From positions 498,736-562,735 of the forward strand of contig NZ_VHIQ01000001.1 in the NCBI RefSeq assembly GCF_006494535.1: a DNA stretch of 64,000 nt, written 5' to 3'. How positions within the stretch are numbered: position 1 is the first letter of the stretch; the number at the start of each line of letters is the position of its first letter. A program made the position numbers and the translations under genes. The stretch is from Paucihalobacter ruber (GTDB taxonomy: Bacteria > Bacteroidota > Bacteroidia > Flavobacteriales > Flavobacteriaceae). Shown piece after piece: positions 1,581-21,703 of this stretch. A model generated the notes under the pieces. That model was not told where the DNA came from. It made no database searches and saw only the letters and a list, made by a program, of their open reading frames with translations.

Positions 1581-1589
1581 AACCTGAAA

Positions 1590-2858: not shown

Positions 2859-3832
2859 GATTGATTTCTCAATTTATCATTTTCAGAAGAACGAATAATT
2901 ATTCTGCCTTCATGTTCTTTACTTAATAAAACAATTTGATGACCAAAAGTTGACGCTTGGGTTAAAATAAAATGCTGGCATTGTGAGGCTAAATACATAT
3001 CCTTAAATCCATTTTGATCATCATTAAAATCGGCAAAATGAATTGGGAATTCGGATTTTAGATGTTTTTTACACCAATCTATGTCATCAGAAAAAACAAA
3101 AAATGCACCTGCCGAAAGTTTTGATTCTATATCGTTAATTGCATTTATATAAAAATCTAAAGTAACAGATTGCCCCCCTTCGTTAGTCAAAAAATCACCT
3201 CGTCGAACATGTATGGCAACTGGATTTTTAGAATTTTTGATTTGATTTAAAAATTCATAATCAACATTTTTAAAAAAAGTTTTATAATCTAGAGTAAGCT
3301 CTTCAAAAATGTTATTATTCTTGGCATAATCAGTTGCGGCTTCTCTTATATCAAGAGAGGCCCATATATTGACTTCAACACTATCGTGAAGAAGTACTTC
3401 ATTCTTAATTCTTTCAATATCATTATTTAGCAATTTAAGTTTCCCTTTACTATAAATCGTGATGTTATTTTGACTTTTTATAAAATTTATAGTTTCAGAA
3501 TCAGGTATAATGATATCGTATCTTATTCCATAATTTGTTATTTGCAAATTACGACTCGTCTGCCCTTCCTTGGTATTCGTATAAAACGTTGTATCAATAA
3601 TTAATGTTGCCTTTTTAATATCGGCTAATAATCGTCCTGCCATATAACAAATCATTTGATTTGTTAAACCTCCTGCCATTTTAACTATTACGGCATTTTT
3701 TAATAAAAACTTCTTTTGATGACCTTTAAAAATATGATTTTCAACATTGCGTAAACTTATGTAACTTTTATATACATATATTGGAAATAAAATGTAACGA
3801 AATAAATTCTTAATCTTTTGATATAGTTTCAT
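2855..3832 (-). CDS. GT11-like (alpha-1,2-fucosyltransferase family) glycosyltransferase
   Basis: This 325-aa protein has the order of motifs expected for GT11. A GGLTNQMICYMAGR segment (residues about 54-67) corresponds to the family GGLGNQ motif, IHVRRGDFL matches the HxRRxD donor site, and a C-terminal part reads DMYLASQCQHFILTQASTFG. GT11 enzymes move fucose from GDP-fucose in alpha-1,2 linkage, so a fucosylated glycan is a reasonable inference. The match to the first motif is imperfect (T for G, I for F), so a different deoxy-sugar is possible. Its 5' end overlaps the upstream GT4 gene by 23 bp and its stop overlaps the next start by 4 bp, so expression is coupled. Confidence 0.78.
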   Translation of the reverse strand: MKLYQKIKNLFRYILFPIYVYKSYISLRNVENHIFKGHQKKFLLKNAVIVKMAGGLTNQMICYMAGRLLADIKKATLIIDTTFYTNTKEGQTSRNLQITNYGIRYDIIIPDSETINFIKSQNNITIYSKGKLKLLNNDIERIKNEVLLHDSVEVNIWASLDIREAATDYAKNNNIFEELTLDYKTFFKNVDYEFLNQIKNSKNPVAIHVRRGDFLTNEGGQSVTLDFYINAINDIESKLSAGAFFVFSDDIDWCKKHLKSEFPIHFADFNDDQNGFKDMYLASQCQHFILTQASTFGHQIVLLSKEHEGRIIIRSSENDKLRNQS

Positions 3833-4985
3833 AGTTCTCTAAATACATTTTTTCTAGTTTTTTTATAACTACCTTCCAATCATATTCCCCTAAAACCCGC
3901 TGTCTGGCTTTTGAACCTATGGTGTTATCATTGATGGCCAACAGGGTTTTTCCTTTTAAATCCTCCATATTACCTAACTCATAAAAGTAACCATAAGCGC
4001 CGTTATCGATGGCTTCCATACTTCCAGGCTCATTGGAGACCACCACAGGTTTACTATGGGCCATACCCTCTAAGACCAAAGTAGGTAAGCCTTCTTTTTT
4101 TGCGGTACTTATCAGACACCTACACGCGGCAATGGCGTGTTGTACTTCTATTTGAGACATTTTTCCAAAAATTTTTAAATTTTTTGGTGGTATGATATGG
4201 TAGTGCTCCTGAAATAACAATTCTGAAAACTCACTGCCTATAATGACAAAGTTATGCTCCGGCATGCTTTTAGCTAACATTACAAACTCTCCGGGATTTT
4301 TCACAGGGTCATGCCTGCTAACATTTAAAATGTAATTGCTTAAGTGGTATTTTTCCTGAAAATAGTGAGCGTCTGCTTTGTCACATTGTGCTACATCAAC
4401 GCCATTAGGAATATAAATAGTGTCTATATTAAATTTCTCTTTGTAAAATTTTTGTTGCCATTTCGACACCGATATTTTGACATCAGCCTTAGAGGCTTCT
4501 TCTACAAAAACCCTATTGAATTCTTTTTGCCAGTTTAACAAATCTTTGCCTGTATGTTCTTTAAAATAGTGTAAATGATACGTATGAATCCATTTTAAAT
4601 TGTTGTTTTTAGCCCTTTGCTCTTGGCACCATAAAATATATTTTGGATACACATGAGAATGTAAAACAGCAGTACCAGGTACTTGTAATTCTTGGATGTA
4701 ATCTCTTAAAAAAACATCCATACTTATTTTCTTTAAAATAGCATCTGGCGGAACAAGTGTGGTTGAAAGATTCGAATTTTTATGGATGGCGTGGATATGA
4801 AAATCAACACCATTAAGCTTTAAGATATTAGCGCCAATATATACTTGTGGCTGTTCTTTCTTGAGTTTTTTAAACCAATTAAAAACTACTCTTCTTTGTA
4901 AATACAACTCCCAATCCCTTTTGCATTTGTTTTTAAAAACATTGAGATGGTAAAAAGCCGATTTTATTTTTCTAAAAAGAATCAA
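3810..4985 (-). CDS. Glycosyltransferase family 4
   Basis: A 391-aa GT4-type enzyme. Readable motifs are AVLHSHVYPKYILW in the acceptor half, the strand-loop NVSRHDPVKNPGEFVMLA, and the donor-site region KEGLPTLVLEGMAHSKPVVVS followed by GSMEAI. The start is uncertain. The first usable codon after an in-frame stop is TTG at 4985, and no ATG occurs until much later in the N-terminal domain. The N-terminal 50 residues are rich in Lys/Arg and aromatics, as in membrane-associated transferases. It is followed by the GT11 gene with a 23-bp overlap. The role is inferred to be addition of one sugar to the exported polysaccharide. Confidence 0.84.
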   Translation of the reverse strand: MILFRKIKSAFYHLNVFKNKCKRDWELYLQRRVVFNWFKKLKKEQPQVYIGANILKLNGVDFHIHAIHKNSNLSTTLVPPDAILKKISMDVFLRDYIQELQVPGTAVLHSHVYPKYILWCQEQRAKNNNLKWIHTYHLHYFKEHTGKDLLNWQKEFNRVFVEEASKADVKISVSKWQQKFYKEKFNIDTIYIPNGVDVAQCDKADAHYFQEKYHLSNYILNVSRHDPVKNPGEFVMLAKSMPEHNFVIIGSEFSELLFQEHYHIIPPKNLKIFGKMSQIEVQHAIAACRCLISTAKKEGLPTLVLEGMAHSKPVVVSNEPGSMEAIDNGAYGYFYELGNMEDLKGKTLLAINDNTIGSKARQRVLGEYDWKVVIKKLEKMYLENYETISKD

Positions 4986-5009
4986 AATTACTTAAAATAT
5001 TGTGAATCA

Positions 5010-5702
5010 TTATTTAATAGCGTACTTATTGAAATATTTCAATATTATATTTTTATATTCAAATTTAAATCTAAAAAAATCAATGTCCTCTTTGTATATT
5101 CTTGAAACTAAGTTTCTTGTTTTCCAATTATAATAATAACTGTAGTGATTCTTTTTTATGGGATTAACATTCGCCATAACATTGAAGAAATCAGAGTTTA
5201 AATTTAAATCTTCGATAACGCGATTTAAGCCGATTTGCAAAGAATCAAAATTTATTTCGGCATCATAAACAATCTTTTGACCATTCAAATAAAAATAGTC
5301 TTTTTGTAGTGCTAAATGGTTACCACAATACAAATGATTTTGAGTGTTATTCAAGATATTACTAAATTTGCCCTTCCTTTTTAAATAATTTTTAAAAGAA
5401 TCCTCTATTTTGTAACTCCTACCTGTCCAAAAATAATCTGATAACAACTTATCCCAAGAGTTCCTGTAGACTATAAATTTATAATAAGTAGACCATTGAT
5501 CTTTAGAGATCAAATTTAAATCTATAAGTTGTTGGGGAGTTGCATGCTGTAAATGTAATTTCAAATTTTCATCCCAACCAAATAATTGATCGTGGTCAGC
5601 ATGTAAATAACTTGAAGTGTTTATACCAAATGCCTTTTCTATACTTGTACCTGCACATTTAGAAATGTGGATAAAAATACATTTATGTTTATGTGATATC
5701 AT
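5010..5702 (-). CDS. Sulfotransferase family protein (polysaccharide operon)
   Basis: A 230-aa sulfotransferase-like protein. The PAPS 5'-phosphosulfate loop is FIHISKCAGTSIEKAFG (residues about 10-26) and a 3'-phosphate strand reads FIVYRNSWDKLLSDYF near residue 80. The ISKCAGTS form is typical of the eukaryote-like sulfotransferase family 2 group found in bacterial capsule loci. No signal peptide is seen. Its ATG overlaps the stop of the next sulfotransferase gene by one base (TAATG), so the two should be translated together. Very AT-rich codon usage (many Asn, Lys, Tyr) contrasts with the neighbouring exporter genes and suggests acquired cargo. The substrate is presumably a sugar of the surface glycan. 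Confidence 0.8.
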   Translation of the reverse strand: MISHKHKCIFIHISKCAGTSIEKAFGINTSSYLHADHDQLFGWDENLKLHLQHATPQQLIDLNLISKDQWSTYYKFIVYRNSWDKLLSDYFWTGRSYKIEDSFKNYLKRKGKFSNILNNTQNHLYCGNHLALQKDYFYLNGQKIVYDAEINFDSLQIGLNRVIEDLNLNSDFFNVMANVNPIKKNHYSYYYNWKTRNLVSRIYKEDIDFFRFKFEYKNIILKYFNKYAIK

Positions 5703-6376
5703 TATTTAACTATTGTTTTGATAATGTTTAAAAATTTGAATTCATCTTGGTACCATTGCGTCAAATTATCAATAGATTGTTGCTCTAAATTTTTATCTAA
5801 TGTAATATCATTGGCATGGGCCTCAACAGTATTTTTATCAGGAAGATGAAGATTTACAGGGAGCTTAAATTTCCTCTTAAACTCCTCAAAATCGTCAACT
5901 AATTGCCCTTGTTGAAAAACAAAACCTATAGATTGTTTGCGTTGAAGCAGGTATTCTTCATTAATAAACCAATCCCAATATGATGACCTGACATGCTCTA
6001 TGGAATACATCGCAAATTCCGCGTTAATACGTTTTTGACTATTATCACTATATAAATCTCTTGCTAATTCGTTAGGCGTGTGAAATATCTGAAATGCAAT
6101 AGCTTCGGAAGCGCTCCACTCAGAATAATATTTTGGTTGTCCTTTCCTTTGTCTTGAGTAAAACCCACTAATAAATCGGTCTATAGGATTTCGAACTGCG
6201 AAAAAGCAAAGATGACCTTCAGGTACTGCGGTAAGCTTGAATTTATGATTGTGCAAATGTATTTTTATATGTTTAACATCACAGTTCTTTGTTAAAGCGT
6301 GTTTAATAGCTGTGCCTCCTGTTTTGCCGATATGGAGAAAGTGCAAATTTTTCTTTTTATGTAGAATATAATACAT
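5702..6376 (-). CDS. Sulfotransferase family protein (polysaccharide operon)
   Basis: A 224-aa protein whose N-terminus has FLHIGKTGGTAIKHAL (PAPS-binding loop) and, near residue 60, CFFAVRNPIDRFISGFYS (3'-phosphate motif). That spacing is normal for the family. It is the first gene after the exporter ATPase, 37 bp downstream, and overlaps the following sulfotransferase by one base. The two adjacent sulfotransferases differ clearly outside the motifs, so they are not a recent duplication and probably modify different positions. The protein is shorter than many family members but has both nucleotide-binding motifs, so it is likely active. Confidence 0.8.
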   Translation of the reverse strand: MYYILHKKKNLHFLHIGKTGGTAIKHALTKNCDVKHIKIHLHNHKFKLTAVPEGHLCFFAVRNPIDRFISGFYSRQRKGQPKYYSEWSASEAIAFQIFHTPNELARDLYSDNSQKRINAEFAMYSIEHVRSSYWDWFINEEYLLQRKQSIGFVFQQGQLVDDFEEFKRKFKLPVNLHLPDKNTVEAHANDITLDKNLEQQSIDNLTQWYQDEFKFLNIIKTIVK

Positions 6377-6413
6377 TATTAATATTTGTTTGATTATAGG
6401 TTTCTAAAGTCCC

Positions 6414-7610
6414 TCAAATAGGCTTATAATGTGCATCAAGTAAAAAAGACTGATAATGATCTTCCTCATGCGTTACCTGAAATTGCAGAACCTGATTCAC
6501 GCGCAATAAGGCCTCAATACTATTGGCTTTAAATACCACCAGACTTAAGGTATATATGCCTTTAGTTAATTGATTTCTTTCGTGTGTTATTCTAAAATGT
6601 AGTTTATGGTTTGATATTTTTAAATGAGAATTAGTTTCATTTTTCTTCAAAACAGCTACGGGTCTTTGTTCTTTATCAAAAATAACCAGTTTAAAAATTG
6701 GTATATCTATATTTTTCTTTATCCCTAAACAAATTTCAATAGATAACGTCTCACCCCAATTGATACTATCTGTAGGACTTTTATTGGCATCTACTATTTG
6801 AATTTTTTCTAATTCGAGTACGCCTGCATCATAAACAATGTTAGCGTGGTTATTGACAAACTTTTTATAATAATCATCTATTCCTTTACTCACATCACCT
6901 CCATGGTACGCTTCTTCGCCGTTCTCCAGTAAAATGACTTGATCGCAAACTCTGGAAATCATAGGCATGTTATGAGAAACAAATATCACTGCCGTATTCT
7001 TTAAAAGTACGTCTATCGTTCTAAAGCATTTTAAAACAAATCCTAAATCTCCTACCGCCAACACTTCATCTATAATCAACACATCCGGTTCCATTTGGGC
7101 CGCGACCGCAAAACCCAGTCTTACCTTCATACCCGAGCTGTAGTTTTGTACGGGCATATCAATAAACTCTCTTATTTCGGAGAAATCGATAATAGCTTCT
7201 ACTTTGGCGTCTATTTCTTTACGGGTAAACCCTAAAACCGCGCCGTTGTTGTAAATATTTTCTCTACCGGTGAGGATGGGGTTAAAACCGGCGCCCAGTT
7301 CTATCAAGGCGCCCACCCTGCCGCGCATGGTCACCGTACCGGCATCGGGATTGATTAAGCCGTTTAAAATTTTTAATAAGGTGGATTTACCGGCACCGTT
7401 ATGGCCAATTAAACCCAAGCACTCGCCACGGCGCAACTCAAAATTAATGTCTTTGACGGCCCAGAATTCCTTAGGCCGCAACTCGCCATCGGTGTCATGG
7501 CCTTTAATGCCCATAAACATATCCTTAACGCCATACCACAAGCTCGTTTTTAAATCTTTGCAGAATTTTTTTGAGACGCCTTCTACTTTTACCAATACTT
7601 CACCTGCCAT
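6414..7610 (-). CDS. Polysaccharide ABC exporter, ATP-binding protein (Wzt/TagH type)
   Basis: A 398-aa ATPase with Walker A GHNGAGKST (69-77), ABC signature YSSGM (157-161) and Walker B VLIIDE (177-182). About 150 further residues (250-398) are predicted beta-rich and match in position the C-terminal carbohydrate-recognition domain of Wzt proteins. It would energise export of a finished, undecaprenyl-linked glycan across the inner membrane with the permease encoded 2 bp upstream. The C-terminal domain in this family reads the modified end of the chain. Base composition is higher in GC than the transferases that follow. The exporter type means the glycan is assembled in the cytoplasm, matching the cytoplasmic sulfotransferases. 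Confidence 0.93.
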   Translation of the reverse strand: MAGEVLVKVEGVSKKFCKDLKTSLWYGVKDMFMGIKGHDTDGELRPKEFWAVKDINFELRRGECLGLIGHNGAGKSTLLKILNGLINPDAGTVTMRGRVGALIELGAGFNPILTGRENIYNNGAVLGFTRKEIDAKVEAIIDFSEIREFIDMPVQNYSSGMKVRLGFAVAAQMEPDVLIIDEVLAVGDLGFVLKCFRTIDVLLKNTAVIFVSHNMPMISRVCDQVILLENGEEAYHGGDVSKGIDDYYKKFVNNHANIVYDAGVLELEKIQIVDANKSPTDSINWGETLSIEICLGIKKNIDIPIFKLVIFDKEQRPVAVLKKNETNSHLKISNHKLHFRITHERNQLTKGIYTLSLVVFKANSIEALLRVNQVLQFQVTHEEDHYQSFLLDAHYKPI

Positions 7611-7612
7611 AT

Positions 7613-8473
7613 CTATGCGCTTAAACGTTCTACAATTACGGGAATGGAAATTCTGTAAATCACCAAACTTATCAACAACAACACTATACCTGCTCCTGTC
7701 AAACCTATAAAATAACTTAAAAACTGTACGTCTTGCCCAACGGTTACATCTCTTAGAGTGGTGACTAAGGGCGTAAATGGGTTGTAGGTCATAATGGTTT
7801 TCATGATACCGCTATCCGGGATGCCATACATAACCGGTGTAAGGTACATCACCAAAGACAGCGCCATGGTGATTAACCTCGACACATCGGTATAGAGCAA
7901 ACCTATGGGCGTCAACAGTAAACCAAAAGCTGTACCAACCAGAATGGCACAACACAGTACCAATGGAAATAGCAATAATGACCAATGAAACCCAACACCA
8001 AACACAAATATAAATACCACTAAGAGCACTACTTTAACGCTACTGTTAAACAACAATTTATAAATACCAGATAGAATTAGTGCTTCCTTTGGAAAGTTGA
8101 TTTTACTTAAAATACTGCGTGCGGCATTGGTACTTACCGTGGGTGAATTGATAGCTTCTAACAACATAGACCAAATCAAAGTTCCCGAAAACACATAAAC
8201 AGGATAAGGCATCCCGGTATCGGCGATGGCTAAGGTTCCTGAGCTATTTAAAAATATCCAAATGGCCGCAGAAGCCAAAGGCGTTAAAAACAGCCATATA
8301 ATTCCCAAATAAGATTGCCGGTATTGCGAGCTGATATCGCGCTTGGCAAATTGCCAGGCCAAAAAATGAGAACCCCACAAATCTTGAAGGGTTTCTTTCA
8401 GCAATGAAAATACCCTTGCTTTGTTTTGCCGCTTGTATATTTTAACCGGTAGTGGACTTTGTTGCGATGTCAT
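7613..8473 (-). CDS. Polysaccharide ABC exporter, permease (Wzm/TagG type)
   Basis: A 286-aa membrane protein. A cytoplasmic N-terminus ends in LWGSHFLAWQFAKRDISSQYRQSYLG, the amphipathic entry helix typical of ABC-2 polysaccharide permeases. Six hydrophobic segments follow, with a periplasmic segment reading YLTPVMYGIPDSG. It forms the export channel for the glycan together with the ATPase whose gene starts 2 bp later (TAGATATG). It lies 258 bp after the antiterminator gene. Length and topology are normal for the family. Confidence 0.92.
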   Translation of the reverse strand: MTSQQSPLPVKIYKRQNKARVFSLLKETLQDLWGSHFLAWQFAKRDISSQYRQSYLGIIWLFLTPLASAAIWIFLNSSGTLAIADTGMPYPVYVFSGTLIWSMLLEAINSPTVSTNAARSILSKINFPKEALILSGIYKLLFNSSVKVVLLVVFIFVFGVGFHWSLLLFPLVLCCAILVGTAFGLLLTPIGLLYTDVSRLITMALSLVMYLTPVMYGIPDSGIMKTIMTYNPFTPLVTTLRDVTVGQDVQFLSYFIGLTGAGIVLLLISLVIYRISIPVIVERLSA

Positions 8474-8731
8474 TTATTTAGTTTGTGAGTATTTAAGTAT
8501 TTGAGTTTTCTAGTCTCTTAGTTTATTTTAACTTTTACGCCTCATGCAGTTCACCGGTGAACCTGTAGGTCTTTTATTTTTTTGTCATGATTATTTTATC
8601 ATCCGTCTTCTGTCCTCCGTCCTCTCTTCTCTCTTCTCTATATTCTCTTCTCTCCCTTCAGCGCACGGCTTCGCCAATGTCAGTCACATGTTTCAGTGCT
8701 AACTAATTTATAATAAATATATTATCAATCC
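8474..8731. other. Spacer between antiterminator and exporter genes, with palindrome and purine-rich tract
   Basis: No gene is seen. The spacer holds a perfect 14-bp palindrome GTTCACCGGTGAAC (8549-8562) and a long polypyrimidine stretch at about 8595-8660 that is GA-rich in the transcript. Similar low-complexity tracts occur elsewhere in the window. It would be transcribed as part of the operon and could carry a pause or processing site on which the antiterminator acts, but that is only an inference from position. Confidence 0.4.
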
Positions 8732-9313
8732 CTAGGCTGCGATGTCATTCAGCTTCTTTACCTGAGATTTTGAAATATCTAACGTTACTGCCCATTGCAG
8801 TACTTCGAGCGCCACCACCAAACGGTGTTGCCCTTTTAACTCTGTTAAGGTGCCGCGCATGCCTTTAAACTGTCCCTGGGTGACCTCCACCCAATCGCCT
8901 TCACACAAATGGGGACCACCCATATCAAGCTGCACCTCGTTGCCACTCCAGGCCTTGGCCAATAAGAGCAGGTTGTTAATTTCGTGCCATTTTACCAGTG
9001 CCGGTTGTCCGAACTCTTTTAAAACCCCCTGTACCAAGGCATATTGGTATAAAGCCGTTATGTTCTCTATGCTATTTTCCACAAACACCACTCCTGGAAT
9101 GAGTGGCAGCTCTACCTTTTTCTTGCGGTCTGACCATTGTCTTAGGGTAGTGTAGGTAATGGCATAACAGTTAATGCCATGAGCCGAGAGTTGCTGCGCC
9201 AGTTTTTTCTCGGCGCGTGGCTTGGTTTTGACCACCAGCCATTGCTGTGATTTTAAAGCCTCTTGACTATCTTGGGGTGATTTGGTATATATGGCAGGTG
9301 AATTATTTAACAT
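8732..9313 (-). CDS. UpxY-family transcription antiterminator (NusG-like)
   Basis: A 193-aa NusG/RfaH-like protein. The NGN domain begins with WLVVKTKPRAEKKLAQQL and carries LPLIPGVVFV. A C-terminal KOW segment reads EGDWVEVTQGQFKGMRGTL. In Bacteroidota, UpxY proteins encoded first in capsule operons bind RNA polymerase and let it read through the long operon. Position at the head of the polysaccharide operon agrees. I chose the ATG at 9313 because an AAAGGAGA sequence lies about 11 bases before it. A GTG at 9340 would add nine residues. It is expressed from the TATGTTTG promoter at 9470-9500, giving a leader of about 150 bases. Confidence 0.88.
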   Translation of the reverse strand: MLNNSPAIYTKSPQDSQEALKSQQWLVVKTKPRAEKKLAQQLSAHGINCYAITYTTLRQWSDRKKKVELPLIPGVVFVENSIENITALYQYALVQGVLKEFGQPALVKWHEINNLLLLAKAWSGNEVQLDMGGPHLCEGDWVEVTQGQFKGMRGTLTELKGQHRLVVALEVLQWAVTLDISKSQVKKLNDIAA

Positions 9314-9469
9314 GCTAGGTTCATCTCCTTTAAAAACCACTAGAGACGGTTGTTTTTTTATTGATTTGACCTGAATAATTTGCCGTTGTTGTCATTGATA
9401 TGGGGTCAATAATTTACAAAGCAAAATGATGATTTTTAACAAGCTAATTTTCTTTAAAACAATATTTGG

Positions 9470-11882: not shown

Positions 11883-14726
11883 ATGAATAAGTATTTAGTG
11901 AGTATAGCCGCAGTTTTTTTTTGTATTGTTTTTAGTTATGGACAAACACAACAAATATTTTGGCGTTCTGAAGCTGTAAATGGGGAATGGTTTGAGGCCA
12001 ATCCTTGCGGAGAAATTGGAACATCTAACTCTCAATGGTTTTACCCACATTTTGGAGGTAATACGTCGAGAAACGCACCTAATTGTTTCGGAATATATGA
12101 TTTAGTTTTTGGCAACAACCATGAACTAATAATGAATAATAGCGAAAGTTTTTTCAACATAAATCGAATTACTTTTGATGGTAGTAATACGAATACCCGA
12201 ACGCTAAATGGCCAAGGAATTGATTTAAGAAATGAAGGTATTAATATCCCTATAATCAGAAACTTAAGTGTTGGAAGCCATATTATAAATATACCAATTG
12301 CCTTACAGAATTCCCCAGTAGAATTCAACCCAGTAAATGGCAACTTAACCTTTTCTAATACTATCTTTAACAATGGTAACTTTATTGATGTTTTTGGCAA
12401 TAATGGCAATATTCTAAGATTATCCGGTAATGTACAAGGCACCGGTGGTATAGCGCTCAAACAAAATTCAATCATTGAGATTGCCGGAGCCATGACCTAT
12501 ACCGGCGGCACAGCCATAGAAGCTGGCACTTTAAGAATTGAAGCGGGAGGAGATTTATCAAATGATACGGCAGTAACTATTTCTAGTAGTGCTACTTTTG
12601 ATTTAAATGACCAAAGCATCACAGTTCGCTCTGTATCAGAAACCGCATCAGGAAACGGTGGAACCGTAGATTTAGGATCGGGTACGTTAACTGTTGCCGG
12701 TGGATGGTCCGGCGAGTTATTTCAAAATACCATAACTGGTAGTGGCAATATTGTAAAAAATGGTAGTGGAACATGGTCTCTTTATGGCACAAATACCTAT
12801 AGTGGCACTACCACAATTAATGGCGGCACTTTAAAATTACTCAATAGTTCACCTAATAGTGACATCACCATAGAAACCGGTGGTACTTTGATTATTGAAG
12901 GTAGTAGTGAAATTACCGTCAAATCAGTTAACATTCAATCCGGAGGTTTACTTCAAATTAATGGCGGGCAAAGCCTAAAAATCACGGGGGATTTGATAAA
13001 TAATGGCACTGTTAATTTATCGCTTTCTTTAGGTGGCGACTTAAAAGTAGGCGGCAACTTTACCCAAAACGGTATCTTAACCAACAACGGTCGCGCCGTG
13101 TTTTTTGATGGGACAGGCGCACAAACAGTTACGGGCAGCTCTTTACCTTTAAGCTTTGACTATGTAAGAGTGGATAAATCAGGTACTACCCTGAGTTTTG
13201 CAGAAGATGTAGTGGTAACCCAGGTAAACGGCGGTGTGGGCTATGAACAAACCAACGGTATTGTTACGGTTGCAGCAGGTAAATCGCTTACGGTACAAAA
13301 TGGTGGTAATTTTGACATAGTTGCAGGAACCTTTACCTTAGAATCCAACAGCACTTCTTATTCCAGTTTAATCGTTAATAATGTTACCAACACCGGTGGC
13401 AGCATACAATACAACCGCTATACCAACGCCATTGGCTCAGGAACTACCGGTGGCAACGATTTGGTAGCACCGCCTTTGGGCGGACAAGCCTTTGGTGCTT
13501 TTGCTACTACTAACGACGGTGTTTTAGCGGCTTCAGGCGACCTGCGTGCTTTTGCACCCTTCAACAATGGCGCAAATCCCGGAGCTTATCAAAATTACAA
13601 TGTTGTAACCGATGCCGCTACTGCCTTGCAAGCCGGCCAAGGATACCGCGCGGCGGCCGGTGCGACTCTACTATTTACCGGTGATGTAACTACCGGCAAT
13701 TTAAGTGTGGGCATCACAGCACCAACCGGCACTTTTGGTGAATGGAACCTGATAGGCAATCCGTATCCCTCTTACATTGATATTGGAGCGTTTTTAAATC
13801 ATGCAGCATCAGGCACCTCCAATATTGACTTAATGAAAAATGCCTCGGGTATTTATGGTTACGACGGCGTCGCTACCGACGGCTGGGATGTGATTACCCT
13901 TGCCAACGCCGGCACCAGATTGATGGCACCCGGACAAGGATTTTTTGTAGCGGCCGATGCCGATGAAAGCTTAGAATTTACCCCTGCCATGAGAAGAACC
14001 GGAAGTTCAGATGATTTTATTCCCGGACGCAGTGCCCCGCTTACCTATTTAAAACTCAAAGCTTCCAACGGTCAGCAAAGCTATAAAACCGACTTTTACT
14101 TTAACCAAAATGCCACAACAGGCTTCGATGCGGGCTACGATGCGCGTACCTGGGGCAACCAAAGCAGCGGTTTTATCCTCTATTCTCATTTGGTAACCGA
14201 TAATACAGGAATTCCCATGGCATTACAGGCTTTGGGTATGGATGATCTTAACGATGTAAGCATTCCGCTGGGCATCAACGCAGCATCGGGCAGTACCTTA
14301 GAATTTAGTATTTTGGAATCGCAATTACCGACCAATACGCAGGTGTATTTAGAGGATTTGACTAATAATACCATTACCTCTATTACCAACACCAGTTACA
14401 GTGTGAACCTTAACCAACCGGTAAGCGGCACCGGACGTTTCTTTTTAAGATTCACCACCGGTACCCTTGGCATTGGCGACGATACGGCCAACTCATTAAA
14501 CATCTATCATGATGCGGCTGCACAAAACATTGTTATTGCAGGACAATTAAGTGCTAACACTCAGGCCTATCTATACGATTTACAAGGTCGAGCAGTTAGC
14601 GCCACCGCCCTAAGCGCAGCCCAATTAGATCAACGTATAGATGTAAGCAGTCTCAGCAGCGGTGTATATGTGCTTAGCTTTGATAATGGCAACACACGCA
14701 TTAGTAAAAAACTGATGATTAGATAA
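11883..14726 (+). CDS. T9SS-secreted protein with autotransporter-type beta-strand repeats
   Basis: A 947-aa protein. Residues 1-20 are a signal peptide ending SYGQ. The middle holds beta-helix repeats of the autotransporter-associated type, such as GGIALKQNSIIEIAGAMTYTG and TNTYSGTTTINGGTLKLL. From about residue 513 to the end it is colinear with the 718-aa paralogue downstream (NAIGSGTTGGNDL…). The last 75 residues, with LYDLQGR, SSGVYVLSF and a basic KKLMIR end, are a type A T9SS sorting domain. It should cross the outer membrane by T9SS and be anchored or released at the surface, probably as an adhesin. A strong hairpin terminator follows. Confidence 0.9.
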   Translation: MNKYLVSIAAVFFCIVFSYGQTQQIFWRSEAVNGEWFEANPCGEIGTSNSQWFYPHFGGNTSRNAPNCFGIYDLVFGNNHELIMNNSESFFNINRITFDGSNTNTRTLNGQGIDLRNEGINIPIIRNLSVGSHIINIPIALQNSPVEFNPVNGNLTFSNTIFNNGNFIDVFGNNGNILRLSGNVQGTGGIALKQNSIIEIAGAMTYTGGTAIEAGTLRIEAGGDLSNDTAVTISSSATFDLNDQSITVRSVSETASGNGGTVDLGSGTLTVAGGWSGELFQNTITGSGNIVKNGSGTWSLYGTNTYSGTTTINGGTLKLLNSSPNSDITIETGGTLIIEGSSEITVKSVNIQSGGLLQINGGQSLKITGDLINNGTVNLSLSLGGDLKVGGNFTQNGILTNNGRAVFFDGTGAQTVTGSSLPLSFDYVRVDKSGTTLSFAEDVVVTQVNGGVGYEQTNGIVTVAAGKSLTVQNGGNFDIVAGTFTLESNSTSYSSLIVNNVTNTGGSIQYNRYTNAIGSGTTGGNDLVAPPLGGQAFGAFATTNDGVLAASGDLRAFAPFNNGANPGAYQNYNVVTDAATALQAGQGYRAAAGATLLFTGDVTTGNLSVGITAPTGTFGEWNLIGNPYPSYIDIGAFLNHAASGTSNIDLMKNASGIYGYDGVATDGWDVITLANAGTRLMAPGQGFFVAADADESLEFTPAMRRTGSSDDFIPGRSAPLTYLKLKASNGQQSYKTDFYFNQNATTGFDAGYDARTWGNQSSGFILYSHLVTDNTGIPMALQALGMDDLNDVSIPLGINAASGSTLEFSILESQLPTNTQVYLEDLTNNTITSITNTSYSVNLNQPVSGTGRFFLRFTTGTLGIGDDTANSLNIYHDAAAQNIVIAGQLSANTQAYLYDLQGRAVSATALSAAQLDQRIDVSSLSSGVYVLSFDNGNTRISKKLMIR

Positions 14727-15586: not shown

Positions 15587-15594
15587 TACCTTTG
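15587..15594 (+). promoter_or_regulatory. Candidate -7 element for the second T9SS gene
   Basis: TACCTTTG matches TAnnTTTG, 38 bases before the ATG at 15633. The nearest upstream TTG is only 13 bp away, shorter than the usual 17-23 bp spacing, so this is a weak call. Confidence 0.35.
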
Positions 15595-15632
15595 TGCCGT
15601 TAACAACAATACATCCTATCAAATCTATTCAT

Positions 15633-17789
15633 ATGAAACAACTTTACATCTTCGTCATACTATTATCGTTCAGTTTTATTGGTTTTGGTCAAACCACCTT
15701 GGTGACTTATGATTTTACCGGGCAGCCGGGAACTCAGGCTACACAGCTCACTGCTACTTTAGGTAGCAATATTACAGCAACTCCAATAAGCCGTGGAACA
15801 CTTGCTACAGGCTCTGCACTAACTAATAGTATGGTTTCCGGCAACTGGCCATTAACAAACAGCATCAATATAGAAACTTATTTTGAATTTAGCGTAACAC
15901 CTACTCCTGGTTATGTTTTAACTTTAAACCAACTAATATTTTCTGACATAAATAGCAGAAATGGTGCCTTGAGTTTCGCTATCCGAACCAATTTTGATGC
16001 ATTTGCTAATGATGTATTTACTGATGCCATACCCTCTGTATCAGGTAATAATAGCGTTACAACACCCCGCAATATAAACCTACCTGCCATTTCGTCTAGC
16101 AATGCTATTACTATTAGAATTTATGGCTACAATAGAGCAAATGGAGCAAATAGAAGTTGGGGCTTGACAAATAACATGCAATTAACCGGTACCGTTACTC
16201 CCATTACTTATGTATACGATAATGGCTGGACACCGGCTAATCCTGAAGGGCTATCTACGAATGTTAATCCTATAGAAATTGTGTCGGGAAATTATACATT
16301 TGGCGCAGATGTTACGTGCGAAAGTATAACGGTATCACCGGGCAGCACAATAACTGTTAACAATGGTGTGCTCATTGAAGCTGTGAATGGAATCAATTTG
16401 CAATCTGTTTCTAATAACTACTCTGGTCTCATTTTAAATAATGGCTTTATAGATGGACCCATAAGATACAGTAGGTATGTGAATGCCATTGGTTCTGGTA
16501 CCACAGGTGGTAACGACCTTATTACTCCTCCACTAAACGGTCAGAGATTTGATCTTTTCGCCAATGCCAATGCCGGAGTATTAGCCGAATCAGGAAATGT
16601 CAGAGCTTGGGCACCTTTTAACAATGCGAGTGGTGTTTATGAAAATTACGACATCTTAACTGATAGATTTACACTTTTGGAATCTGGTCAAGGTTTCCGC
16701 GCTGCAACAATAGGTGGAGCCAATTTGTTATTTACAGGTACGTCTAATAATACCAATTTTGATGCTACCATTACTTCAGAAACAGGTACTTTTGGTAAGT
16801 GGAATGCCATTGGCAACCCTTATCCGTCCTATATTGATATTGATGCCTTTTTAAATCACACCGTTTCTGGCTTAACAAATATTGATAAATTGGCTGCCGA
16901 TGCACAGGCCATCTACGGTTATGACGGATCTGCCACCGATGGCTGGGATGTTATTAATCTGGCTAATGCTGCCGGCAGACTCATGGCGCCCGGACAAGGC
17001 TTTTTTGTAGCAGCCGATACAGGCGGTGCATTCTTGCGATTTACACCGGCCATGCGCACTGTAGGTAGTGGTGACGACTTTATACTTGGGCGCACGCAAC
17101 CATTAACCTTCCTAAAGCTAAATGCTACTAATGGTAGCCAAACCTACAATACTGATATTTACTTTAATGATAATGGTAGTTTAGGTTTCGACCCCGGTTA
17201 CGATGCCAAATTATGGGGTGGCGATACCAGCGGGTTTAAATTGTATTCTCATGTAGTTGAGAATAATATGGGCATTCCACTGGCTTTGCAAACCGTTAAT
17301 ACCAACCATTTAAGTGACGTAATTATTCCGTTGGGAATTAATAGTGCTGCCGGAACTGATGTCACCTTTAGCCTGGCCGCTTTTAATTTACCGGGAACCG
17401 TTGAGGTGTATCTGGAAGATGATGTTAACAACACCATCACCCGTATTGATAACGGAAACTATACGGTTACACTTAACCAAACGGTGAGTGGCACTGGACG
17501 TTTCTTTTTAAGGGTTAGTGGTAGCAGTTTAAATATTGATGACGAAAGCCGTCCTCGTTTAAATATCTATCAACTACCTACCGAAAAGGCCATTGTAATT
17601 GCAGGGGCTATTAACAACAATACCGAAGCCCATTTATACGATATACAAGGCCGTATGGTAAGTACTACTGTATTAAATGCAGCCCAATTAGAGCAGCGTA
17701 TTGATGTAAGTGGTTTGGGTACCGGCGTATATGTATTGAGTTTTGAAAATGGTGCGGAACGCATTTCTAAAAAACTGATGATACAATAA
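15633..17789 (+). CDS. T9SS-secreted protein, paralogue of the 947-aa protein
   Basis: A 718-aa protein starting MKQLYIFVILLSFSFIGFGQ, a signal peptide. I chose this ATG because the longer frame needs a GTG and overlaps the -7 element. Residues about 20-200 form a separate N-terminal domain not found in the 947-aa protein. From about residue 283 to the end the two proteins are colinear for about 435 residues. The C-terminus is a T9SS type A sorting domain (LYDIQGR, GTGVYVLSF, KKLMI). It is probably a surface-exposed or released protein. Its gene lies 120 bp before the small-peptide cassette on the same strand, with only a weak hairpin between them. Confidence 0.88.
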   Translation: MKQLYIFVILLSFSFIGFGQTTLVTYDFTGQPGTQATQLTATLGSNITATPISRGTLATGSALTNSMVSGNWPLTNSINIETYFEFSVTPTPGYVLTLNQLIFSDINSRNGALSFAIRTNFDAFANDVFTDAIPSVSGNNSVTTPRNINLPAISSSNAITIRIYGYNRANGANRSWGLTNNMQLTGTVTPITYVYDNGWTPANPEGLSTNVNPIEIVSGNYTFGADVTCESITVSPGSTITVNNGVLIEAVNGINLQSVSNNYSGLILNNGFIDGPIRYSRYVNAIGSGTTGGNDLITPPLNGQRFDLFANANAGVLAESGNVRAWAPFNNASGVYENYDILTDRFTLLESGQGFRAATIGGANLLFTGTSNNTNFDATITSETGTFGKWNAIGNPYPSYIDIDAFLNHTVSGLTNIDKLAADAQAIYGYDGSATDGWDVINLANAAGRLMAPGQGFFVAADTGGAFLRFTPAMRTVGSGDDFILGRTQPLTFLKLNATNGSQTYNTDIYFNDNGSLGFDPGYDAKLWGGDTSGFKLYSHVVENNMGIPLALQTVNTNHLSDVIIPLGINSAAGTDVTFSLAAFNLPGTVEVYLEDDVNNTITRIDNGNYTVTLNQTVSGTGRFFLRVSGSSLNIDDESRPRLNIYQLPTEKAIVIAGAINNNTEAHLYDIQGRMVSTTVLNAAQLEQRIDVSGLGTGVYVLSFENGAERISKKLMIQ

Positions 17790-17853: not shown

Positions 17854-17887
17854 TTGCTTTTAATTATAAATTATTTTATTACTTTTG
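17854..17887 (+). promoter_or_regulatory. Promoter of the small-peptide cassette
   Basis: TTG (17854-17856), 23 bp spacer, then TACTTTTG (17880-17887), an exact TAnnTTTG match. The GTG start of the peptide follows 22 bases after the -7 element, with an AAAGAGA sequence between. This supports the peptide and the two enzymes after it as a separate transcription unit. Confidence 0.5.
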
Positions 17888-17909: not shown

Positions 17910-18071
17910 GTGAAAAAGACTAGCGACAATCATAAAATTACCCGTAAGGAAGCCCTGAAAAAAATGGGGAAATATGCGGCTTTTACCGCCATTGGTACAT
18001 TTTTAATTTTAAACCCCAAAACGGCACAAGCGCAATCACTACCTCCTGATCCGGGTGGAGATTTTGATTAA
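17910..18071 (+). CDS. Small exported peptide, candidate substrate of the adjacent kinase and nucleotidyltransferase
   Basis: A 53-aa frame with a GTG start. It reads a basic N-terminus (KKTSDNHKITRKEALKKMG), a hydrophobic stretch (YAAFTAIGTFLIL) and an AQA cleavage-like site, leaving about 12 residues, QSLPPDPGGDFD. The TRKEALKKMG segment resembles, but does not fully match, a twin-arginine signal. I recognise no named family. A promoter lies directly upstream, and the HprK-like gene starts 19 bp after its stop. The organisation (short precursor with a tiny Pro/Gly/Asp-rich tail, a kinase-fold enzyme, a nucleotidyltransferase) suggests a modified, exported peptide. The modification is inferred, not shown. 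The alternative is a small lipoprotein-like envelope peptide with unrelated neighbours. Confidence 0.7.
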   Translation: MKKTSDNHKITRKEALKKMGKYAAFTAIGTFLILNPKTAQAQSLPPDPGGDFD

Positions 18072-18090
18072 GCCCTATTTGTAAAGAATT

Positions 18091-19218
18091 TTGAATAAGC
18101 ATCTGGCGCCCACATACCAGTGCCTCTTAAACGGGCATGTGGTACTTTGGCACCAAAATTCTAATAATTACAGCGTTGTTACCTCAGCATTTGTTGAATT
18201 ATTGGGTCACTACCTAGACGCTAAAAACAGTGAAGACTTTATGAATAGTCTTCAAAATAGTTATGGTTTTGACGAGGCTACTGCTACAAAATTGGAAACA
18301 GACATCACCCTTCAGCTTGAGGCCGCCAATGCTTTAAAAGACAGCACACCTATTGCCCCCGATCATTACGATACGGCATTAGCTGAAATTACCAAATGTT
18401 ACCAAGCGTTTAACAGCACCTTTAAAATTGCCGCCCAACATAAAGGCTTGCTGCATTATGTGCATCCGGCACTCGCCCATTTGGAATGCGAGGACCTCAA
18501 CAATGCCACGACGGAATTTTACTTAAGTGAAAATCCGGATGGTTTGCATTTGTTTTTAAACCAACAACACTATGGGAGTTTTCCAAAAAAGGACTATCAC
18601 CTACTGCAAGGCAGATTTGTGATGTTACTTCTTGGTGCGATTCACCATCAGAACGATGCCAACTGGATGGCATCCTTTCACGCTTCCACCATAGCCAAAA
18701 ACGGTAAAGCCGTCATGCTGACGGGCGCTTCGGGTAAAGGTAAAAGTACGCTCACCGCACTACTTTCTTTTAATGGATTTGAATTTGTTGCCGACGATGT
18801 AACCGGCATGTTATACCCAAATCTGGAGGTGTACAGTTATCCCGCCGCCATTTCGGTGAAGGCCGGGGCTTTTGAGGTTTTGAAAAAGACCATTCCTGAA
18901 ATAACCACGCTACCACTGGCTGCAAATCATCCTAAAGGGTCGGTTAAATTCCTGCCGGTTGTTCAGCAAAAAGCAAGCCATTATCCGTGTCAAGACATTG
19001 TGTTTGTGCATTACAGTCCTAACCCTATAACAGCAGCGCTGAAACCTATCTCGACAGTTACCGCTTTACAAACCTTAATCCCCGACACCTGGCTGTCGCC
19101 AAAACCGGAACACGCCAAAGCATTTTTAGACTGGCTGCCCGGCTTAAAAGCCTATGAGTTGCACTATCACCATAATCATGAGGCCATTGAAATCATGGAA
19201 GCGCTCTTTAAAAACTAA
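18091..19218 (+). CDS. HPr kinase-like protein, possibly with a PqqD-like N-terminus
   Basis: A 375-aa protein. The C-terminal part has the HprK P-loop GASGKGKST (212-220) followed at the right distance by FEFVADD (230-236), the paired Asp of the HprK fold, then a beta-rich segment SYPAAISVKAG. Residues 1-95 have the size and pattern of a PqqD-type peptide-recognition domain (SAFVELLGHYLDAKNSEDFM…), but this is a weak, by-eye match. An in-frame stop at 18082 and no early ATG make TTG at 18091 the likely start. HprK-like enzymes in lasso-peptide loci phosphorylate the peptide; a similar role here is inference. It sits between the small peptide gene and the nucleotidyltransferase gene, 24 bp apart. 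Confidence 0.78.
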   Translation: MNKHLAPTYQCLLNGHVVLWHQNSNNYSVVTSAFVELLGHYLDAKNSEDFMNSLQNSYGFDEATATKLETDITLQLEAANALKDSTPIAPDHYDTALAEITKCYQAFNSTFKIAAQHKGLLHYVHPALAHLECEDLNNATTEFYLSENPDGLHLFLNQQHYGSFPKKDYHLLQGRFVMLLLGAIHHQNDANWMASFHASTIAKNGKAVMLTGASGKGKSTLTALLSFNGFEFVADDVTGMLYPNLEVYSYPAAISVKAGAFEVLKKTIPEITTLPLAANHPKGSVKFLPVVQQKASHYPCQDIVFVHYSPNPITAALKPISTVTALQTLIPDTWLSPKPEHAKAFLDWLPGLKAYELHYHHNHEAIEIMEALFKN

Positions 19219-19242
19219 GGGGTTTTAGTATCTTAGCTGTAA

Positions 19243-20289
19243 ATGATACCAATGAAACGGCAAAAGCTTTCTACCTACAAGTTAATTGGACAGATTATTA
19301 GTTTTAGCGGGACTAAAGAGACTTTGGTACAACAACTTAAGGACTATCAAAACTGGGAAGCACTGGTGTATTACGGGAGTCAGCATTTATTGTTACCTAC
19401 CATCTACAAGCGACTCAAAGACCTGCAAATACTGCACTTATTACCCGATGACCTGGTAGCATATCTCGAAGAGATCCATCAAATCAACCACAACCGCAAT
19501 TTGTTGCTGCTTCAACAAATAAAGCAGCTACATGGCGTCTTGTCTGAAGCACATGTCAACCACCTCTTTTTAAAAGGTGCCGCATTTTTAATTAAAGGTG
19601 CCCACAGCAACAACCTTGAACGTATGGTGGGCGATATTGACATTTTAGTAGATGTCTCTCAAGCACAAAAGGCCTTTGAATTGCTTAAAGAGAACGGCTA
19701 TGACCAACAAATTGGCTTTAATTACGAGGTCAAAAACTATCGGCATCTTAACAGACAGATTTCAAAAGCCGGTTTGGCAGCGGTAGAATTACACGGCGAC
19801 CTTTTAAAACATCCTAAACAATATCTTATAAAAGCCAAAGAAATGCTTGAAACACAAGTTTTATGCAACCATTTACCCATACCAAATAACTATTTTATGG
19901 GTTTGCACAGCGTTCTGGCACTTCAAATCAACGATTTAGGCTACTATTACAAAACCGTATCGCTAAAAACGCTCAATGATACTTTGGTTTTGGGTATTGC
20001 ACAACAACCTCAACTTATTCAAAACCTGCAATCTCACAAATACGGGCGCTTGTTTTTAGCCTATGCCCAACAATTTAGTAGAGACTTTAGCGTTTTAAAA
20101 TTGAGCAAATGGCAACAATTTCAAGGCTTATGGTTATCTTTTAAGTTAAGGTTACCTCTGTACAGTTACTTGGTACATCGCTTAAAAAGTGCTTTGTGGT
20201 TCTTATTCAACCGCTTGTATTTGTGGTTAACCAATTCAAGCTATCGAAAAAACCTGCTAAAAAATAAATTTAAACAACCTCATAATTAG
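19243..20289 (+). CDS. Nucleotidyltransferase family protein (PF14907-type)
   Basis: A 348-aa protein with the nucleotidyltransferase signature LFLKGAAFLIKGAH…MVGDIDILVD; D131 and D133 are the likely metal ligands. The layout (helical N-terminus, GD-x-D core near residue 130, long helical C-terminus with a basic aromatic end) matches the NTP_transf_5 family. These proteins recur beside HprK-like and PqqD-like proteins in RiPP and exopolysaccharide loci. Substrate is unknown; transfer of a nucleotidyl group to a peptide or sugar are both possible. It is the third gene of the cassette. ATG at 19243 or 19252 would serve as start. Confidence 0.83.
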   Translation: MIPMKRQKLSTYKLIGQIISFSGTKETLVQQLKDYQNWEALVYYGSQHLLLPTIYKRLKDLQILHLLPDDLVAYLEEIHQINHNRNLLLLQQIKQLHGVLSEAHVNHLFLKGAAFLIKGAHSNNLERMVGDIDILVDVSQAQKAFELLKENGYDQQIGFNYEVKNYRHLNRQISKAGLAAVELHGDLLKHPKQYLIKAKEMLETQVLCNHLPIPNNYFMGLHSVLALQINDLGYYYKTVSLKTLNDTLVLGIAQQPQLIQNLQSHKYGRLFLAYAQQFSRDFSVLKLSKWQQFQGLWLSFKLRLPLYSYLVHRLKSALWFLFNRLYLWLTNSSYRKNLLKNKFKQPHN

Positions 20290-20346: not shown

Positions 20347-20943
20347 ATGAAAAATACTACTTTACTGCTTCTTATAATGTTCGGTTTTGGAATTGCCAAC
20401 TCTTTTGGTCAATCAACAAGATCTATAGATAAAGACGAATGGTTAATAGGTGTTGGATTCAACACCATCAATTCGCAAGGTACCAAATCACCGTTTGGAG
20501 ATATCTCAGACTGGGCTTTTAGATATCCTCTGGCGGTAAGTGCTGAAACTTATTGGTCAAGATTGTTCTCTGTTGAACTAGCGGCGAGCTTAAATGGCTA
20601 CAAAGCCGGTGATGCTATTGACGCAGTAGGACCGTCTGACGACAACCTTACCTATTTTGCCATCGACACCCACCTTAAATATTATTTTGGAGAAAAGATT
20701 TTCCCAAGAACCGAATGGCTCGACTTTTACGCCTTAGCTGGTCTTGGTTTTTTTACAGTTGAAGATGGCAACCTCTCAGGAAATATCGGAGGTGGCGCTA
20801 TGTTTTGGTTAGATAAAAAACAATCTAAAGGTATCAAACTTCAAGGTGTTGCCAAATTAGCATTTAATCACAGTAATTCAGGCTCAACTTACGCCAATAA
20901 CCACTTTCAGTACAACTTAATGTTTGTTTTTAGATTGTATTAA
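20347..20943 (+). CDS. Outer-membrane beta-barrel protein (porin-like)
   Basis: A 198-aa protein with a signal peptide (to NSFGQ, residue about 22), followed by alternating hydrophobic strands with aromatic ends: WLIGVGFNTI, FRYPLAVSAETYW, LFSVELAASLNGY, LTYFAIDTHLKYYF, FYALAGLGFFTV. It ends in FQYNLMFVFRLY, the terminal aromatic typical of OMP strands. An eight-strand barrel is likely. It stands 57 bp after the nucleotidyltransferase gene on the same strand and is followed by a terminator, so it may belong to the same transcript. Function unknown. Confidence 0.8.
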   Translation: MKNTTLLLLIMFGFGIANSFGQSTRSIDKDEWLIGVGFNTINSQGTKSPFGDISDWAFRYPLAVSAETYWSRLFSVELAASLNGYKAGDAIDAVGPSDDNLTYFAIDTHLKYYFGEKIFPRTEWLDFYALAGLGFFTVEDGNLSGNIGGGAMFWLDKKQSKGIKLQGVAKLAFNHSNSGSTYANNHFQYNLMFVFRLY

Positions 20944-21173: not shown

Positions 21174-21703
21174 CTAAACCTGGTGCTCGTTTGCAACGAG
21201 TGCCCATTTACACCAGCGTTTATAACGCGAGTAATATGTTTAGACTTAAGAATGAAAGACTTAAGACTTACGACTTGATCTAGTCAGGCATGCTCAAGAC
21301 TTCAACCATTCAGCACAAACCAAGAACATCCAAACCCTATATCAACCCCAAATCTTTAACCGTTGCAATGAGTTGCGTGGCATTTTTAGCACCAAACTGA
21401 ATGCGCAGTAAACCAATTCGCTTTTCGACCGAACTAAACTAAACCTGGTGCTCGTTTGCAACGAGTGCCCATTTACACCAGCGTTTATAACGCGAGTAAT
21501 ATGTTTAGACTTAAGACTGAAAGACATAAGACTTACGACTAGATCTATTCAGGCATGCTCAAGACTTCAACAATTAACCACAAACCAAGAACATCCAAAC
21601 CCTATATCAACCCCAAATCTTTAACCGTTGCAATGAGTTGCGTGGCATTTTTAGCACCAAACTGAATGCGCAGTAAACCAATTCGCTTTTCGACCGAACT
21701 TAG
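21174..21703. repeat. 265-bp tandem duplication including the 3' end of the response regulator gene
   Basis: Copy 1 is 21174-21438 and copy 2 is 21439-21703, offset exactly 265. Each starts CTAAACCTGGTGCTCG, passes GCGAGTAATATGTTTAGAC and ends TTCGCTTTTCGACCGAA. Copy 2 holds the last 34 codons of the response regulator; copy 1 is a detached duplicate of those codons. By eye the coding-derived 100 bp are identical in both copies, while about nine differences lie in the spacer part. GGTGCTCGTTTGCAACGAG at the left end resembles the repeat at 9958 and 15349. Confidence 0.85.

Follow-up and report, generated by a model that had tools for sequence, protein, structure and literature searches.

A candidate cassette for a serine-phosphorylated exported peptide in Paucihalobacter ruber, a probable Gram-negative relative of linear polyphosphorylated peptides

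We analysed a 64,000-nucleotide stretch of Paucihalobacter ruber (contig NZ_VHIQ01000001.1; the whole stretch is called the window), in which a small peptide gene and two enzyme genes at 17910–20289 had been proposed to form a peptide-modification cassette. All cassette features described here lie on the forward strand, and the frames, starts, spacings and motifs of the original prediction were all present. The precursor peptide gene (17910–18071), recognized by reading of the open reading frame (ORF) and by profile matches, starts with GTG and encodes 53 aa (VKKTSDNHKITRKEALKKMGKYAAFTAIGTFLILNPKTAQAQSLPPDPGGDFD), comprising a leader with ITRKEALKKMGKYAAFTAIGTFLILNP, an AQA site at residues 39–41 and an invariant Ser43, which opens the last 11 residues. 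Nineteen bases downstream lies a 375-aa HprK-like kinase (18091–19218; TTG start; GASGKGKST and FVADD), whose residues 1–80 (18091–18330) are predicted to fold, as three strands followed by three helices, into a PqqD-like recognition element (RRE) of ribosomally synthesized and post-translationally modified peptides (RiPPs). After another 24 bases comes a 348-aa PF14907 nucleotidyltransferase (19243–20289; GDIDILVD; Pfam E 3.2e-27). The gene preceding the peptide (15594–17789) encodes a 731-aa surface protein, a cargo of the type IX secretion system (T9SS) with a Por_Secre_tail domain (PF18962). As judged from sequence comparison, the conserved unit takes in this gene as well, and 17910–20289 is a little narrow. 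Peptide modification is still the best reading of the cassette, supported by the RRE fold, Ser43 and the recurrence of the trio. Our proposal, with a probability of roughly 0.68, is that its product is a short linear peptide, phosphorylated on serine and exported, which would be the Gram-negative counterpart of the linear polyphosphorylated peptides (LPPs).

The peptide family was defined from 119 profile matches. Eight rows with E >1e-15, mostly decayed or frameshifted, were dropped (L057 twice, L082, the second copies of L085, L087 and L088, and L090 twice), the fragments L194 and L199 were also excluded, and the resulting 104 peptides are unique sequences, not independent lineages. Ser43, two residues past AQA, was kept in 102 of them; the exceptions were a truncated copy in L124, identical in L021 and from a genome with the kinase, and a copy with Tyr in genome G069. 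Downstream of the A-x-A site, Ser43 was the most constant position. Within that site, Ala39 was found in 97 peptides, Ala41 in 91 and both in 84, and the hydrophobic segment of the leader was strongly conserved. Counted from Ser43, the tail had 7–16 residues in 85/104 peptides; F or W stood among the last three residues in 83/104, and a further Ser or Thr was present in 65/104. Because the tails were nearly alike within one genome, across different cargo genes, and were conserved between genera, a bacteriocin-like diversifying product was ruled out. A modification had originally been predicted for the Pro/Gly/Asp tail. Rather than the tail as a whole, the likely site is the invariant serine at its start. 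Ser43 (codon TCA, 18036–18038) is the predicted phosphate acceptor, a likely assignment based on its conservation and on the LPP precedent of Ser3 in an AQS core (PMC13381572).

Judged by its sequence relatives, the 53-aa peptide is a real gene of a conserved family. Of 299 Flavobacteriaceae genomes, P. ruber included, 30 had a kinase match, 32 a peptide match and 28 both (Fisher p 8.2e-33, a value that overstates independence, as the genomes are related). For the peptide, a 22-sequence profile (the window peptide and 21 relatives) was run on a draw of the same size, 299 genomes, with the same handles wherever listed. This genome-level linkage to the kinase ruled out a chance ORF as the identity of the 53-aa frame. 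In the P. ruber genome, the profile found the window frame at E 5.9e-29, the sole other match being at 0.52. A contig search with the kinase confirmed 125 stretches, of which 80 loci were kept; by title, these belonged to Flavobacteriaceae genera or to metagenome-assembled genomes labelled Flavobacteriaceae, Flavobacteriales, Bacteroidia or Bacteroidetes. A peptide match lay inside the flanks at 66 of the 80 loci, 63 of them strong. The gene trio recurs in relatives, and the small frame is conserved beside the kinase. When 395 genomes of the phylum were searched with the peptide profile, five genomes were clear, all from the same family, and two weak matches fell on leaders resembling twin-arginine translocation (Tat) signals. 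Four distant kinases outside the family (L212–L215, 276–304 aa) had no peptide by profile.

The genomes with only one partner are few. The kinase was found without the peptide in G048 (82% complete, kinase at the contig start) and G246 (partial kinase match), and the peptide without the kinase in G069, G136, G275 and G294. In G136, a 26-position match to the kinase tail appeared on profile re-search. In G069, of the same genus as the window and with no kinase found by profile, Tyr replaces Ser43, no ATG, GTG or TTG stands in frame ahead of the motif, and neither kinase nor nucleotidyltransferase lies behind the peptide copy. In G294, likewise with no kinase found by profile, the peptide frame is interrupted and ends before the serine. 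Such peptide defects in kinase-less genomes are few cases from incomplete assemblies. In both G383 and G597, a single contig carries the one kinase-nucleotidyltransferase pair, while six peptide genes per genome are found on other contigs; eleven of these twelve peptides directly follow a frame whose C terminus is of T9SS type, and the twelfth stands in tandem behind a sister peptide. In G123, two peptides are located ~370 and ~490 kb from the kinase. From these arrangements, one kinase-nucleotidyltransferase pair would appear to serve many peptides in trans. As a separate observation, in L052 (around 10099) and L078 (around 5807) peptides lie behind apparent remains of a second kinase copy, suggestive of cassette duplication and decay.

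The kinase most likely carries its own RRE-type leader-binding domain. A model of the whole protein from a 52-sequence alignment reached a mean predicted local distance difference test (pLDDT) score of 93.9 and matched PEPCK and HPr kinases. When residues 1–90 were modelled alone (pLDDT 85.9), the best VIA-align match was a lasso B1 protein with its leader (6jx3; Z 8.3, root-mean-square deviation 2.5, 78 residues), followed by TbiB1 (5v1u, Z 7.5), the sactipeptide enzymes 5why (Z 6.9) and 5wgg (Z 6.8), TigE (Z 6.0) and the RRE of PbtF (Z 5.2); unrelated rows appeared from Z 4.9 down. The first seven rows are all RiPP-pathway proteins. The RRE assignment rests on these Z scores and on the consistency of the match list, and the fold bears out the PqqD/RRE-like character earlier suspected for residues 1–95. 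A Methylobacterium relative of the kinase has a PF05402 PqqD match in its N-terminal part (E 4.9e-9). In the catalytic part, H197, K218, D235 and D236 were invariant in alignments of 20 and of 52 kinases, as was the P-loop. A His-Lys-Asp-Asp motif is required by lasso-peptide kinases (PMC9266682), and the four residues, which come in the same order, are probably its equivalent. The kinase region matched TIGR04352 at E 3.6e-19. In a PDB sequence search with the kinase profile, the best 60 of 88 matches covered P-loop regions only.

For the nucleotidyltransferase, D131, D133, E182 and H184 were invariant in 21 aligned sequences, and no PDB sequence matched its profile at E ≤1. The best hint for its role comes by analogy from PsmN of pseudomycoidin, which puts hexoses on phosphoserine, with a host enzyme possible there (PMC9266682). 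A few relatives have a PF00483 sugar nucleotidyltransferase in place of PF14907 behind the kinase (L123, 7074–9004; L026, 603–1487), and L123 also has an APH-type kinase; these PF00483 enzymes, too, point to a sugar.

The gene preceding the peptide in the window has a PF18962 type A sorting domain (E 1.7e-10; score 41.4 bits, cut-off 27). To this the original account of the cassette was blind: it was incomplete in leaving out a T9SS cargo gene that is the conserved neighbour. For 4 of 91 unique peptides, no ORF in the 1300 bases upstream reached 100 aa; 20 of the remaining 87 upstream ORFs were used for training, and the resulting sorting-domain profile matched 65 of the 67 held out, some of which were counted twice owing to tandem peptides in L076, L077 and L141. 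The background was 29/265 stop-to-stop frames of at least 150 aa from 20 loci, with the partners still included. Both misses were peptides behind what appear, by eye, to be remains of a second kinase. The peptide gene often follows its cargo gene with almost no gap. Paralogs of the T9SS partner in the P. ruber genome comprise two close ones (identity 62% and 40%) and three weak ones, whereas a single peptide was found. The tandem cargo paralogs 11883–14726 and 15594–17789 are 62% identical over the C-terminal part, and the peptide follows the second only. Both the cargo pairing and the uniformity of the tails favour a stoichiometric T9SS-cargo partner over a secreted weapon, which is the least certain of our conclusions.

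The peptide gene had been credited with a TAnnTTTG promoter of its own. The Bacteroidota-type element fitting this motif, TACTTTTG, was indeed read at 17880–17887, and its function as a promoter is modestly supported by enrichment among relatives: the motif occurred within 70 bases upstream in 16/27 peptides with a gap of more than 90 bases to the preceding frame, in 10/64 with a shorter gap, and in 4.3% of shuffled stretches. Downstream of the nucleotidyltransferase, a secreted 198-aa protein that looks like an outer-membrane barrel by eye (20347–20943, forward strand) is loosely linked to the cassette, with relatives at 12/21 loci, and had no match in the Pfam scan. Farther on, a palindromic-looking stretch of about 60 bases (ctggtgctcgtttgcaacgagtgcccatttacaccagcg...) is present twice between genes, at about 21174–21240 and 21440–21500.

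The leader resembles Tat signal peptides in its [TS]R[KN]EAxxK sequence followed by a hydrophobic stretch and A-x-A. However, a twin arginine (RR) was found in none of the 104 flavobacterial leaders, and a canonical Tat substrate was ruled out; in a further difference, conservation extends through KYAAxTAxGT, which is probably more than an export signal needs. The eight proteobacterial relatives all have a true RR, and TatC is present in the P. ruber genome. Export could follow a Tat-like or the Sec route.

Nine plasmid loci (eight alphaproteobacterial and one from Vibrio) were read out of 20 matches listed, 32 records having matched. A flavobacterial-leader profile run on 1749 six-frame stretches of the nine loci ranked seven small twin-arginine-led peptides at the top (E 0.001–0.71), one per locus in 7/9 loci and near such kinases. 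In the reverse search, a profile of six alphaproteobacterial leaders was run on the flavobacterial loci together with the window (17,602 stretches), and ranks 1–45 were all flavobacterial peptide frames (43 identified by pattern and 2 by reading), with the window peptide 15th (E 0.0055). Across the entire P. ruber genome (3.5 Mb), with E-values as high as 10 allowed, an eight-peptide proteobacterial profile gave a single match, the window peptide, at E 0.109. Each of these cross-phylum E-values is modest, and the weight lies in the ranks. R17, R18, G25, T31 and S51 were invariant in the eight proteobacterial peptides, with the serine behind the hydrophobic stretch; the alphaproteobacterial relatives keep leader and serine, and their tails are quite different. 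On the sequence evidence, a Gram-negative branch would extend over at least two phyla. In Vibrio alfacsensis (L151), a small ORF, kinase A and a nucleotidyltransferase stand in a row behind a twin-arginine-led protein of 274 aa; the small ORF is PqqD-like by eye and position and matched no family. The twin-arginine-led partner there (L151:3614–4438) is a Cys-containing protein and not a small peptide, and the flavobacterial leader profile did not pick it up. The same profile found no peptide in Methylosinus L154. Rhizobial plasmids (L161, L162 and others) carry further twin-arginine-led copies, some of them without an annotated kinase nearby, and in some records at several places.

What sequence or fold shows, from the RRE-like domain, catalytic residues and invariant serine to the genome linkage, the one-to-many pairing in trans and the T9SS partner, suggests the following course. 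The N-terminal RRE of the kinase would bind the conserved leader (ITRKEALKKMGKYAAFTA...), and the HprK-fold domain would then phosphorylate Ser43. The PF14907 enzyme, where present, may add a nucleotidyl or sugar group to the phosphate, as proposed for PsmN; two enzymes would thereby attach, probably, a phosphate and then a further group to one fixed serine. The leader might double as an export signal, with a housekeeping signal peptidase cutting behind AQA and releasing a peptide that starts QS(P). Once beyond the inner membrane, the peptide would act in concert with the T9SS protein whose gene precedes its own.

Several results weigh against this proposal. R12, A15, L34 and P36 were kept in 104/104 peptides, so that conservation alone does not prove Ser43 to be the acceptor. 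Fourteen of the 80 kinase loci had no peptide in the fetched flanks, some of which are short, and three more had weak, decayed matches. G151 (82% complete) has the kinase and only a truncated peptide, while G136 (84%) and G275 (82%) keep the serine without a full kinase; the absence of the kinase from G069 and G294 was read from assemblies 89% and 92% complete. The kinase scored below curated cut-offs (20.7 of 33.3 bits for PF07475; 68.9 of 200 bits for TIGR04352). Foldseek E-values for the RRE domain were weak (best 0.026), with RiPP leader-binding proteins ranked first, and a Pfam scan of 20 kinases gave no PqqD among the first 25 of 51 families. Phosphorylation of Ser43, the action of the nucleotidyltransferase, export, cleavage and role are all inferred from sequence. 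Finally, no nucleotidyltransferase match stood directly behind the kinase in 21/80 loci, of which 4 have at most about 1 kb of downstream sequence and 3 a match elsewhere in the locus; the core step would therefore appear to be phosphorylation, with the nucleotidyltransferase as an accessory.

The pairing with T9SS cargo opens a different reading, in which the peptide would be a small partner of the cargo in the membrane or periplasm (a chaperone, pilotin or regulator), switched on and off by the enzymes through reversible serine modification, and not an end product. It would account for the position of nearly every peptide gene behind a cargo gene, often at a near-zero gap, for tails that are near-identical across the cargo genes of one genome and for the strongly conserved hydrophobic segment. 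However, we consider it unlikely, as the kinase has a RiPP-type leader-binding fold typical of precursor processing, the A-x-A site suggests that the leader is removed, and the alphaproteobacterial relatives keep leader and serine with other tails, the annotated neighbours of four of them naming no T9SS gene. More speculative still is the idea that the modified peptide is used one-for-one with T9SS cargo, the processed peptide with its phosphoserine-linked sugar serving as acceptor for the T9SS sortase and tying cargo to surface glycan. In Porphyromonas gingivalis, cargo is held by SAGA, a seryl linking sugar (PMC13086638), and the peptide would, if this were true, be a genetically encoded counterpart of SAGA. 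The cargo gene before nearly every peptide, the alike tails within a genome, the single enzyme pair in trans and the nearby glycan and sugar-nucleotide genes speak for this long shot; T9SS paralogs without a peptide in the same genome speak against it, as do the related peptides of Proteobacteria, which are not known to have a T9SS.

The surroundings of the cassette suggest yet another reading, namely that it is part of a surface-glycan locus, its enzymes acting on a sugar or lipid and the peptide being a bystander signal or a glycan primer. According to the Pfam scan, a sulfated surface-glycan locus lies upstream on the opposite strand (870–9340), with three Sulfotransfer_2 proteins, glycosyltransferases, a Wzt/ABC-2 exporter (6414–8473) and a NusG-like regulator. 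Glycan-type clusters (epimerase/dehydrogenase, flippase, NusG-like) were counted by eye upstream in 12/21 loci, and the PF00483 enzymes of L123 and L026 and the APH-type kinase of L123 fit as well. Yet the co-occurrence of peptide and kinase across genomes includes cases where the two are unlinked (G383, G597 and G123), there is no evident reason for an RRE on a sugar kinase, and none of the annotated neighbours at the Sinorhizobium meliloti Ak57 locus is a gene for glycan assembly, which makes this account quite improbable. Least of all do we expect a lasso peptide or another cyclised RiPP with its cyclase elsewhere in the genome. The kinase fold, the RRE-like domain and the nucleotidyltransferase do recall the paeninodin and pseudomycoidin clusters (PadeK/PsmK, PsmN), in which an HprK-fold serine kinase with His-Lys-Asp-Asp is joined by a nucleotidyltransferase homologue modifying phosphoserine (PMC9266682, PMC8498205). 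In contrast to these, no cyclase was seen here, the leader is export-signal-like, and the conserved serine stands at the start of the tail, whereas lasso kinases are reported to act on a C-terminal Ser. No macrolactam synthetase (C) or B2 peptidase was found in the Pfam scan, which covered neighbouring ORFs from 150 aa upwards and neither shorter ones nor the remainder of the genome. The absence of a cyclase and protease B2, noted earlier for the cassette, thus extends to these neighbours, and on that scope a lasso peptide was ruled out.

A serine-phosphorylated exported peptide, the reading that we prefer, has its closest published counterpart in the LPPs, which were described in 2026 as restricted to Bacillota and of unknown role (PMC13381572). 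In the Gram-negative branch, the leader seems to double as the export signal, a single kinase-RRE would act in trans on several peptides, and almost every peptide of the Flavobacteriaceae is paired with a T9SS surface protein. The branch would offer a first functional handle on phosphopeptides beside surface polysaccharides, as well as a possible substrate for kinases and nucleotidyltransferases to which none has been assigned, such as the HPr-rel-A set of NCBIfam (TIGR04352 kinase A and TIGR04353 PqqD family chaperone). The window kinase matches TIGR04352, but far below its cut-off, and has its PqqD part fused. We propose a leader-peptide family as the substrate in both HPr-rel-A and this kinase group. 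As judged from titles and the openings of abstracts, and with most subscription papers outside its coverage, the literature search turned up nothing on this cassette in Bacteroidota or on a Tat-like leader with an HprK kinase.

The cassette had originally been taken for a minimal system of an unrecognised kind, a view that gives way before the published LPPs. According to that report (PMC13381572), an LPP cluster comprises LppA, LppK, LppB, LppS, LppD and LppN, among them an RRE, the HprK kinase LppK, the nucleoside triphosphate (NTP) transferase LppN, the SpI-type peptidase LppS and the exporter LppD. LppK phosphorylates S3 alone in the AQSNWK core, with up to four phosphates, and S3A, S3T and S3Y abolish phosphorylation; deletion of lppN had no effect in a heterologous host, and the loci are often near capsular polysaccharide genes (PMC13381572). 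Both systems have a linear precursor (one to several), an HprK-like kinase, an RRE and an NTP transferase, are often near surface-polysaccharide loci, and place a serine close behind the cleavage site, phosphorylated in the AQS core of LPPs and present here as Ser43 behind AQA. The kinase counts as HprK-like by fold, P-loop and His-Lys-Asp-Asp, with a Pfam score below the cut-off. Full LPP membership was ruled out by three defining features that the cassette lacks. The RRE is discrete in LPPs, whereas the RRE-like domain is fused to the kinase here. LPP leaders have a YxxP motif, whereas [YW]xxP occurs in 0/104 leaders here, which are export-signal-like. LPP clusters also have their own peptidase and exporter, whereas no SpI peptidase or MsbA-like exporter was found among Pfam-scanned ORFs of at least 150 aa at 870–30867 (one antisense frame at 12041 excluded), the rest of the genome not being searched. 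The cassette differs further in its T9SS cargo partner and in its range, Flavobacteriaceae with related peptides in Proteobacteria, against the Bacillota-only claim made for LPPs. By analogy, the cassette would act in the LPP manner up to phosphorylation, as a variant of that system and not a member of it.

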